DNA of 34,410 nucleotides from Alphaproteobacteria bacterium (GCA_010032545.1 RGPT01000015.1:1-34410); one strand, 5' to 3'; positions 23,336-31,042 are shown, numbered from the stretch's first letter. A program made the numbers and translations. The notes: a model not told the origin generated them from the sequence alone.

Positions 23336-24583
23336 TCAGACCCGCGGCAACGACGATCCCGGCAGCCGGATCGATGCGGCCAGCACTGTAAAGGGCACGA
23401 GCGCGACCGCCGAGACGATCAGCGACGCCTGCGTGCCGAACAGGGTGGCGATCTTTCCCCAAAGCAGGGATCCCGCGACCATGGCGCCGAAAAACACCAT
23501 CTGGTGCACCGCCATGCCGCGCGCGCGCATGTAGTTGGGGAGCATCATCTGTATGGCCGCGCCATTGTTGGCGATGACGATGATCCAGCAGGCGCCGTTC
23601 AGGGTCACCACGGCGCCCACCACCAGCGGCGTCATGACCAGTGCCGCCACCAGGGTGGAAGCGGCAGAAATGCCCATCGCCCAAATGTTGGCGCGGTCGG
23701 CGCCCAGCAGGCGGTTCACCGTCGGCATCGCGAACGCGGCCGCGACGGCACCGACCCCGAATACGCCGTAGAGGATGCCGAAGTCGAACTCATCGAGGCC
23801 CAGTTCGAAACGGCCGATCACCGGAAGCAGGGTTCCCATGGCAATGCCGGGAACGAAAAAGCATAGGCCCCGTGCGAAGATCGCCCTGAGTTCGACCGAG
23901 CCACGCACGAAGGCGATACCGGCCCGGGCCGCCTCGGCCAGCCCCTCGCGGCGCTGGGCGGCGCGCGCCTCGGCGGGCCGCTTCCAGGCGAGCATGGCGA
24001 AGATCACGCCGACGTAGGTGAGCGCATTGATCGCGAAGAGCAGGAAAACACCCACCAGACTCAGCAGAAGCTGTCCGACGACCGGACCGACGGTACGGGC
24101 GAGGTTGAAGCCCGCGCTGTTCAGCGCGATGGCCGGACGCAGCTGCGGACCGGAGACGATCTCGGGCACGACGGCGTGCCAGGCCGGTGCATTCATGGCA
24201 TTGCCGAGCCCCATGCAGAAACTGAGCCCGAGCAGGCTCCAGTGGTCGAGACGACCCAGGAACGCGAGCGTCGCCAGGGCGGCCGCCACGCCCATCATCC
24301 AGAACTGACAGACGATGATGTAGCGTCGTCGCTCGAAGCGATCGGCCAGGATGCCGGCGAAGAAGCAGAACAGGAACATCGGCAGGGTTCCGGCCGCCGA
24401 CAGCAGTGCCACGAAGATCGGCTCCTGTGTCAGGCTGGTCATCTCCCAGGCCGCACCCGTGGTCGCCATCCAGCCGCCGGTGTTGGACAGCACGTTGGCC
24501 GTCCACAGCAGGACAAAAGCGCGGTTGGAGAAAGGAGCGAGGGCCGATGCCGGACGGCCGGCGCCGGGCGGCGGCGCGCTCAC
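23336..24583 (-). CDS. MFS transporter (EntS/TetV-like MFS_3 group)
   Basis: 415 residues starting at GTG 24583, which overlaps the stop of the ceramide synthase gene in GTGA. Twelve hydrophobic segments are visible. The A-motif-like loop GILADRFERRRYIIVCQ lies between TM2 and TM3, and ALNSAGFNLARTVGPVVGQLLL is in TM5. These features and the short central loop (RPAEARAAQRREGLAEAARAG) fit the EntS/MFS_3 exporters. The four-base overlap puts it firmly in the ceramide operon. Substrate is unknown; transport of a lipid or lipid precursor is an inference from position alone. It appears to be the last gene of the cluster. Confidence 0.82.
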   Translation of the reverse strand: MSAPPPGAGRPASALAPFSNRAFVLLWTANVLSNTGGWMATTGAAWEMTSLTQEPIFVALLSAAGTLPMFLFCFFAGILADRFERRRYIIVCQFWMMGVAAALATLAFLGRLDHWSLLGLSFCMGLGNAMNAPAWHAVVPEIVSGPQLRPAIALNSAGFNLARTVGPVVGQLLLSLVGVFLLFAINALTYVGVIFAMLAWKRPAEARAAQRREGLAEAARAGIAFVRGSVELRAIFARGLCFFVPGIAMGTLLPVIGRFELGLDEFDFGILYGVFGVGAVAAAFAMPTVNRLLGADRANIWAMGISAASTLVAALVMTPLVVGAVVTLNGACWIIVIANNGAAIQMMLPNYMRARGMAVHQMVFFGAMVAGSLLWGKIATLFGTQASLIVSAVALVPFTVLAASIRLPGSSLPRV

Positions 24584-29284: not shown

Positions 29285-31042
29285 TCAGGCCGCGACGGGC
29301 TTCAAAGGTGAAACCGGACTCGTGTAGAGGCCTGCCAGATAGTTGGCCTTGGTCCGCGCTCTGCTGAGCTTGCCCGAACTTGTCATCGGCAACCCGGTCG
29401 TCGGCGGCACCAGAGCGACATCGCAATCGACGGCGATCGCCTCGCGTACCGCCCCGGCGACCTCACGCGCGAGCGCCGCGCCCGCTTCCGGCCCTGAAAC
29501 ACGCGCCAGCACCGCCACAACCACGCGCTCGCCGGCGCCGGTATCGACCGAGAACGCCGCCGCATCGCCGCTCTTCACGACCCGTCGGGCTTCGATCGCC
29601 CACTCGATATCCTGCGGCCAGACATTGCGACCGTTGATGATGATGAGATCCTTGGCCCGCCCTGTGACGACGATCTCGTCAGCCAGCCAATAGCCGAGAT
29701 CGCCGGTGTCGAGCCAACCGTCGTCCGAAAGGACCTCGCGGCTCGCCTCCTGCTCGCCGAAATAGCCCGGCATCACGCTCGGACCCTTGATGAAGATGCG
29801 CCCCACCTGCCGGTCGGCCAGCGGCGTACCGTCGGGACCCCGCACTTCGAGAAGATGACCGGGCAAGACCCGGCCACACAGCACGAAACTGCGGGCACGC
29901 TGCGCGTCCAGCGGATCGGCCGCCGGGACGGCTGCCTGATCCTTGCCGAGCGCGACCCGGTCGACGACATCGGTCCGCACGCCGGCGCCTTTGGGACTGA
30001 AAGTGATGGCCAAGCACACCTCGGCCATGCCGTAGCTTGGAATGAAGGCCTTGCGGTCGAAGCCCGAGGGCGCGAAGGCGTCGGCGAAACGATCGAGTAC
30101 TTCGGGCCTGATCATGTCGCCACCGATGCCGGCGCGCCGCCAACTCGAGAGGTCGAGGTCAGCCGGCACCTGGGTGGCGCCACGCCGCGTCGAAAGGTCG
30201 TAGCCGAAGCTTGGACTGTAAGAGATGGTGCCGCGATTGCGAGAGATGATGTTGAGCCACTGCATAGGCCGGCGCGCGAAGTCGCGCGGCGTGAGGTAGT
30301 CGATCGACAGCTGGCAGCTGAGCGGGGCCATCAGGAAGCCGATCAGCCCCATGTCGTGATAGAGCGGCAGCCAGCTCGCCGTGCGATCGCCCGGGATCAC
30401 GTCGAGACCGGCCGGCCCGGTCATCCCGGCGAGGTTCGCCATCAGGGCGCGCTGCATGATCTGGACGCCATGCGGGTGCCGCGTGCTGCCAGACGAGAAC
30501 TGGATGTAGCAAAGGTCGGCGGGGCCGAGTGGCCGCAGGTCGACCGCCTTCTCGGGCAGCGCATCGAGAACGCCCTTGCCGCCGTGCAGGCGAACGGCCG
30601 GGAGGTCGGACGCGGCGTCAGCCAAAAACCCGGCGAGATCGTCAATGCCGACAGCCGCGACCGCTCCCGAAGCGACCAACTGCCGGCGGAGCTGGTCGAG
30701 ATAGGCGTCCTTGCCGCCGATGCCGACCGGGATCGACACGGGCACAGGGACCAGCCCGGCATACTGGGCGCCAAAGAACGCGTCGAAGAAGCCAGGCCAG
30801 GTATCGGCGGTGATCAAGAGCCTCTCGCCGGCAGCAAAGCCCGCCCCGATCAGCTTGCGAGCGGTGACATGGGCGCGCTCCCGGACTTCGCGCCAGGCCA
30901 ACGCCGTCAGCAGGTCTCCCTTGGCGCTGTAAAAGGAGATTCCGGTCTGGCCCTGGGCGGCATAGTCCAGAATCTCAGGTACCGTGGCGAAGTCCGCTCG
31001 GCGCAGGGGCAAACGACTATTGCGTGAAGGAAGCGGGTCCAT
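29285..31042 (-). CDS. aasR: Fatty acyl-ACP ligase (AMP-forming) for sphingolipid synthesis
   Basis: 585 residues from ATG 31042, with AGGAGA 11 bases upstream. It is an ANL-family adenylating enzyme of the fatty acyl-AMP ligase type. The ATP loop is FSSGSTRHPHGVQI (182-195), then ASWLPLYHDMGLIGFL, SYGMAEVCLA, the hinge DGWLDTGDLGYWLADEIVVTGRAKDLIIINGRNVWPQDIE, and the catalytic Lys in TSSGKLSRART. The DxGLIG and GRNxxPQDIE forms are typical of FAAL-like ligases that load ACPs. It would activate a free fatty acid and transfer it to the neighbouring ACP, as AasR does in Caulobacter. It is the first gene of the minus-strand cluster, divergent from argD by 150 bases. Confidence 0.85.
   Translation of the reverse strand: MDPLPSRNSRLPLRRADFATVPEILDYAAQGQTGISFYSAKGDLLTALAWREVRERAHVTARKLIGAGFAAGERLLITADTWPGFFDAFFGAQYAGLVPVPVSIPVGIGGKDAYLDQLRRQLVASGAVAAVGIDDLAGFLADAASDLPAVRLHGGKGVLDALPEKAVDLRPLGPADLCYIQFSSGSTRHPHGVQIMQRALMANLAGMTGPAGLDVIPGDRTASWLPLYHDMGLIGFLMAPLSCQLSIDYLTPRDFARRPMQWLNIISRNRGTISYSPSFGYDLSTRRGATQVPADLDLSSWRRAGIGGDMIRPEVLDRFADAFAPSGFDRKAFIPSYGMAEVCLAITFSPKGAGVRTDVVDRVALGKDQAAVPAADPLDAQRARSFVLCGRVLPGHLLEVRGPDGTPLADRQVGRIFIKGPSVMPGYFGEQEASREVLSDDGWLDTGDLGYWLADEIVVTGRAKDLIIINGRNVWPQDIEWAIEARRVVKSGDAAAFSVDTGAGERVVVAVLARVSGPEAGAALAREVAGAVREAIAVDCDVALVPPTTGLPMTSSGKLSRARTKANYLAGLYTSPVSPLKPVAA

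Follow-up and report, generated by a model that had tools for sequence, protein, structure and literature searches.

A condensed, predicted ceramide operon in Reyranella and the apparent genus-wide absence of LPS and Lpt genes

The stretch of DNA analysed here (34,410 nucleotides, hereafter the window) comes from a genome of Reyranella, a genus of soil and water bacteria, and its nearest named loci are found in R. massiliensis, R. soli, R. aquatilis and 'Enhydrobacter aerosaccus' ATCC 27094. Seven intact open reading frames follow each other on the minus strand at the coordinates given in the initial annotation (positions 23336 to 31042), in the transcription order aasR-cerR-acpR-spt-metallophosphoesterase-cerS-MFS. 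They are separated by 10, 25, 5, 50, 7 and -4 bases, i.e. by 10 bases or less in four of the six cases, which agrees with the earlier statement that most gaps are this short; the gap between cerR and acpR widens from 25 to 67 bases if acpR starts at an ATG. Besides the five functions that had been named before, the run contains a calcineurin-like metallophosphoesterase gene and a gene for an MFS_3-family transporter. Promoter and terminator scans gave no signal above shuffled sequence, and the seven genes presumably form one transcription unit for the de novo synthesis of (dihydro)ceramide. On the left-hand side, an argD-like gene (31193..32380, plus strand) diverges from aasR across a 150-base intergenic region and is followed by an argF-like gene (32387..33313, plus strand). 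On the right-hand side, an ornithine/lysine decarboxylase-like gene (odc, 21784..22935) and a homospermidine synthase-like gene (hss, 20243..21688), both on the minus strand, lie outside the pathway. These four anchors were named by reading their translations.

The first gene, aasR (29285..31042, minus strand, 585 amino acids), encodes a fatty acyl-AMP ligase or specialised acyl-ACP synthetase, which scores 751.8 bits against NCBIfam NF006624 (cut-off 600) and shares 44% identity over 557 amino acids with AasR of E. coli B; all E. coli reference genes were taken from BL21(DE3) (NC_012971). cerR (28348..29274, minus strand, 308 amino acids) encodes a ceramide reductase of the NAD-dependent epimerase/dehydratase type (PF01370, E=9e-20), with 34% identity over 306 amino acids to E. 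coli B CerR and a YxxxK motif at Y121/K125. The dedicated acyl carrier protein is encoded by acpR (27939..28322, minus strand), which yields 127 amino acids from a TTG start or 113 from the ATG at 28280; it matches PF00550 (E=6e-8) and E. coli B AcpR (43% over 46 amino acids), and its DSL serine is S70 in the ATG numbering and S84 otherwise. The assignment of AasR and AcpR draws on their sequence and on the position of their genes beside spt. The serine palmitoyltransferase gene spt (26704..27933, minus strand, 409 amino acids) scores 657.3 bits against the equivalog model NF047599 (cut-off 500), and its product is 49% identical to the E. coli B counterpart. Its nearest solved structures are bacterial serine palmitoyltransferases (PDB 2x8u and 2w8j, E of about 1e-131 or better), with the Sphingomonas type being closest. 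The motifs listed in the initial annotation are all intact, namely Spt K244, AcpR S70 (ATG numbering), CerR Y121/K125 and, in AasR, lysine K558 of the C-terminal TSSGK. A placement of Spt with AONS/KBL, which had been named as contrary evidence, was not seen in the tree, where Spt groups with Spt and apart from the BioF/KBL-like paralogue of the same genome, the latter on a very long branch.

The ceramide synthase gene cerS (24580..25728, minus strand, 382 amino acids) was identified by homology and predicted fold. Its product had no match in Pfam, NCBIfam or the PDB sequence search, and it aligns over its full length with E. coli YghO (42% over 379 amino acids, E=1e-103). It is also 48% identical to the protein encoded where synteny places CerS in Caulobacter sp. 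Root343 (L177). An AlphaFold model built from 20 homologues has a mean pLDDT of 87.7 and matches the tandem-GNAT structures 7q3a, 2wpw and 5kf1. CerS was the sole protein of its family found in the window's genome, and in the tree it groups with alphaproteobacterial homologues as sister to Vineibacter. A phylogeny that puts the GNAT protein outside the bCerS clade, the second contrary outcome named beforehand, was likewise not obtained. By homology and predicted structure, the GNAT protein is a real ceramide synthase of the YghO/CC_1154 type.

Two additional genes complete the run. The metallophosphoesterase (25736..26653, minus strand, 305 amino acids) belongs to PF00149 (E=1e-12), and its metal motifs SDPH, GDLV, GNHD, HH and GHNH are intact. 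Synteny marks it as CC_1158-type: Caulobacter loci have a homologue at the CC_1158 position, and homologues are encoded near spt in many Proteobacteria. CC_1158 itself has a mild phenotype in Caulobacter (PMC11324152). The transporter gene (23336..24583, minus strand, 415 amino acids) overlaps cerS by four bases. Its product belongs to PF05977 (E=8e-108) and weakly resembles the transporter portion of models for acyl-ACP:phospholipid O-acyltransferase.

By sequence, genes to supply acyl-AcpR and to carry out condensation, N-acylation and reduction are thus all present, and Reyranella is predicted to produce ceramide. By analogy with work in Caulobacter, from which the substrates and the product are transferred, AasR would adenylate a fatty acid and load it onto AcpR, and Spt would condense acyl-AcpR with serine to 3-oxo-sphinganine. 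The order of the following two steps is the subject of rival models (PMC11324152 and PMC11087976). The initial annotation predicted from the cluster that N-acylation precedes keto-reduction, and this part of its interpretation was not supported, because proponents of either order work with these five genes (PMC11324152, PMC11087976); gene content does not differ between the two orders and cannot discriminate between them. Its gene assignments, in contrast, were borne out by family membership, homology and trees. The CC_1158-type phosphoesterase would act later, with a phosphorylated lipid or a headgroup intermediate as its possible substrate, and the MFS protein, a candidate only, might also act later, perhaps as an inner-membrane flippase.

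The same seven-gene order is conserved in at least 20 other Reyranella genomes, with gaps mostly below 70 bases, and the cluster is therefore more than a chance arrangement. In one genome (G014), about 5.5 kb are inserted between spt and the phosphoesterase gene (L075, 10819-15905), which splits the operon. The inserted genes lie on the opposite strand and read as HlyD-like, double ABC ATPase-like and ABC permease-like by translation; the idea that they are relocated kinase and transferase genes was therefore rejected, as they are exporter genes of the HlyD/ABC type and not CPG genes. In another genome (G002, L081), phosphoesterase-cerS-MFS occurs without spt directly upstream. The operon also looks mosaic: the window's Spt is 95-97% identical to that of two loci (L125, L134) whose CerS is only 85% identical, and the window's CerS is 90% identical to that of two others (L118, L124) whose AasR is only 77-80% identical. 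Recombination within the operon or uneven rates could account for this.

In maximum-likelihood trees, the window's Spt and CerS are each placed in a single Reyranella clade with Vineibacter or the sister genus G222 as its sister, and the ceramide core therefore looks vertically inherited. The flanking genes allow the locus to be followed beyond the genus. The odc anchor is collinear, together with hss, in G222 (L201), in a further genome (G037, L091) and in Reyranella, and hss in L201, L091, L123 and L136. On the other side, argD is collinear in G222 (L058) and Reyranella, and argF in L058, L123 and L136. In G222, the same core lies between argF-argD and MFS-odc-hss, and this interval also holds CC_1161-, CC_1159-, CC_1153- and CC_1152-type genes, a second CDP-alcohol transferase gene, a fatty-acid hydroxylase gene, lptF2, lptG2, and ELM1-like and Wzx-like genes. 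Between the corresponding flanks (argD-argF and odc-hss), Reyranella carries the seven genes only, i.e. the ceramide core, the CC_1158-type phosphoesterase gene and the MFS gene. In one Caulobacter locus (L177), cerR-acpR-spt are followed by oppositely oriented CC_1161-, CC_1160- and CC_1159-type genes, and these by a phosphoesterase gene in the CC_1158 position, a CC_1157-type gene, LptF2, LptG2, cerS and a CC_1153-type gene. Here cerS and spt are about 7.3 kb apart, in line with the earlier remark that the Caulobacter synthase gene is distant from spt. The parsimonious reading of these gene orders is that the condensed Reyranella operon arose by loss of the intervening headgroup and Lpt genes, by which cerS would have joined the spt run.

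Three loci (L069, 7259-8065; L162, 2738-3658; L058, 54-899) carry a fatty-acid hydroxylase-like gene, either between spt and cerS or beside cerS, that is missing from the Reyranella operon. At L069 and L162, spt and cerS are close to each other on one strand with this gene between them, and it could encode an N-acyl hydroxylase in those lineages.

The phosphoesterase gene was kept after the other headgroup genes had been lost, and the role of its product is therefore probably not confined to CPG2. In both the sister genus and the sister family, an MFS homologue borders the sphingolipid cluster, and the gene also adjoins odc-hss in relatives. As the gene stood at the cluster edge before the losses, its present position alone is no evidence of a lipid function, and proximity may be all that connects it with lipid transport. 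The retention of these two neighbours when headgroup and Lpt genes go points to roles outside the CPG2 pathway.

The headgroup genes might also have moved instead of being lost, so that ceramide would still be phosphorylated and capped to a CPG-like lipid by enzymes encoded elsewhere. The retained CC_1158-type phosphoesterase would fit such a partial pathway, and the window's genome carries two DAGK_cat genes elsewhere, one of which weakly matches a Caulobacter CpgB homologue over 70 residues; both are of uncertain type and not clearly CpgB. However, the complete, single-contig genome G016 has no DAGK_cat match, even though the profile does detect a Caulobacter CpgB homologue, and a survey of 19-21 kb surrounding the operon in R. 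massiliensis (L136, L202) and R. soli (L124) found no homologues of CC_1161, CC_1160, CC_1159, CC_1153 or CC_1152, apart from a weak 105-residue CC_1153 match across the junction of cerS with the MFS gene. In the Vineibacter/G222 clusters (L201, L058, L137), homologues of the CPG headgroup genes are present except for the kinase. A relocation of the headgroup genes is therefore considered rather unlikely, and their loss from a larger ancestral cluster is preferred.

This loss coincides with a broader absence of envelope genes. HMM searches, which included some draft genomes, did not find LpxC in 40 of 41 Reyranella genomes, LpxB in 13 of 13, LptF/G in 21 of 21, or LptD in 13 of 13, although LptD was present in all 22 other genomes. 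The single-contig genome G016 is among those without LpxC, LpxB, LptF/G and LptD, and the single-contig R. massiliensis 521 (G021) has no match to the three profiles LpxC, LpxB and LptD. The Omp85/BamA family was present in 22 of 22 genomes. The sole LpxC match in the genus comes from a 75% complete MAG (G033), where it lies on a 3-kb contig (C681, L108) with a G+C content of 0.69, and it is possibly a contamination or a relic. A literature search yielded no usable open paper on LPS, sphingolipids or hydroxy fatty acids of Reyranella.

It is conceivable that Reyranella makes LPS or an LPS-like lipid with strongly diverged Lpx and Lpt proteins that escape the profiles, in which case the apparent loss would be a detection artefact. 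The absence is indeed deduced from profile searches only, and one congener has the LpxC match just mentioned. Yet four independent families are missing together, also in the single-contig G016, whereas these profiles do detect LptF/G and LptD in G222, and LptF/G in 266 of 289 Alphaproteobacteria. A detection artefact is thus very improbable. In the sister genus G222, LptF/G and LptD were found, and LpxC and LpxB were not. LPS synthesis therefore probably disappeared before these two genera diverged, and loss of the Lpt system was probably confined to Reyranella.

The connection between Spt and LPS genes extends to the class level. In a sample of 289 Alphaproteobacteria, LpxC is missing in 24 of the 40 genomes with a strong Spt match, versus 22 of the 249 others (Fisher p of about 2e-12, not corrected for relatedness). 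Four LptF/G copies are present in 14 of the 16 Spt-bearing genomes with LpxC, and two in 19 of the 24 without it; copies are absent from the three Reyranella genomes and one incomplete genome among the 40. In this sample, the Spt-bearing genomes without LpxC (G049, G074, G076, G095, G107, G112, G116, G129, G167, G195, G228, G269 and their kin) span twelve families, none of which is among the eleven families of Spt-bearing genomes with LpxC. How sphingolipids reach the bacterial outer membrane has been stated as unknown, and a second LptF/G set is the leading proposal (PMC11324152). The copy-number pattern, with two LptFG pairs where LPS and Spt coexist and one where only Spt remains, fits this proposal and supports a second LptF/G set as sphingolipid carrier (PMC11324152). 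Other Spt-bearing lineages without LpxC keep one LptFG pair and LptD. Reyranella is the exception to this pattern, with an intact ceramide operon and no Lpt part detected among those tested.

Because LpxC, LpxB, LptF/G and LptD are missing but Omp85 is kept, Reyranella is most likely an LPS-less diderm with a ceramide-based envelope. Taken together, the genomic data favor, with a probability of roughly 0.8, a ceramide operon that was condensed from a larger ancestral cluster, in an LPS-less diderm in which ceramide lipids would be a main envelope component and no Lpt bridge would exist. Ceramide-based lipids would then be placed in the outer membrane and reach it without the Lpt bridge. The more specific proposal, an outer membrane that contains sphingolipids, lacks LPS and does without any Lpt machinery, so that the lipids would travel there by another route with the MFS protein as candidate for the first step, has about an even chance of being correct.

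Alternatively, the locus could be an ordinary ceramide cluster of the Caulobacter or E. coli B type, with sphingolipids as a minor addition to the envelope and a compactness that has no functional meaning. Homologues of the five core genes are known, their joint clustering has already been described in C. crescentus and E. coli BL21 (PMC9386255), and spt and cerS are also close on one strand at L069 and L162, with the hydroxylase-like gene between them. A minor role is improbable, however, because LpxC, LpxB, LptF/G and LptD are lost and no LPS pathway was found that could supply the outer leaflet. The pathway is a known one in an unusual, condensed form, and what makes the cluster interesting is the apparent lack of LPS and Lpt genes throughout the genus. 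As a probable LPS-less diderm with a putative ceramide-based envelope, Reyranella is a test case for sphingolipid-based outer membranes and a natural exception that makes the question of sphingolipid transport testable in the cultured species R. massiliensis, R. soli and R. aquatilis.

Compared with known systems, the C. crescentus cluster CC_1168-CC_1152 (PMC11324152) has the five ceramide genes and the CC_1158-type phosphoesterase gene in the same relative order as Reyranella. Different from Reyranella, it also includes CC_1161-1159, CC_1153, CC_1152 and LptF2/LptG2, cerS is located about 7 kb from spt, and LPS genes are present in the genome. E. coli BL21 has the same five gene families together, i.e. 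aasR-cerR-acpR-spt and yghO (NC_012971), but yghO is divergent and lptG/lptF-type genes follow spt, whereas in Reyranella cerS is co-directional within the run and no lptFG match was found. In Sphingomonas, which also has Spt, glycosphingolipids replace LPS (PMC11087976, PMC11324152), while in Reyranella such a replacement is supposed from the genes. Of the 17 cluster genes, S. wittichii retains orthologues of 16, among them those for transport (PMC11324152), in contrast to Reyranella with no LptF/G or LptD match. A further parallel is the Vineibacter/G222 cluster (L058, L137, L201): while, unlike Reyranella, it comes with headgroup genes, a fatty-acid hydroxylase-like gene, LptF2/LptG2 and LptD, G222 likewise has neither LpxC nor LpxB, and the cluster occupies the same genomic place with the same core genes.
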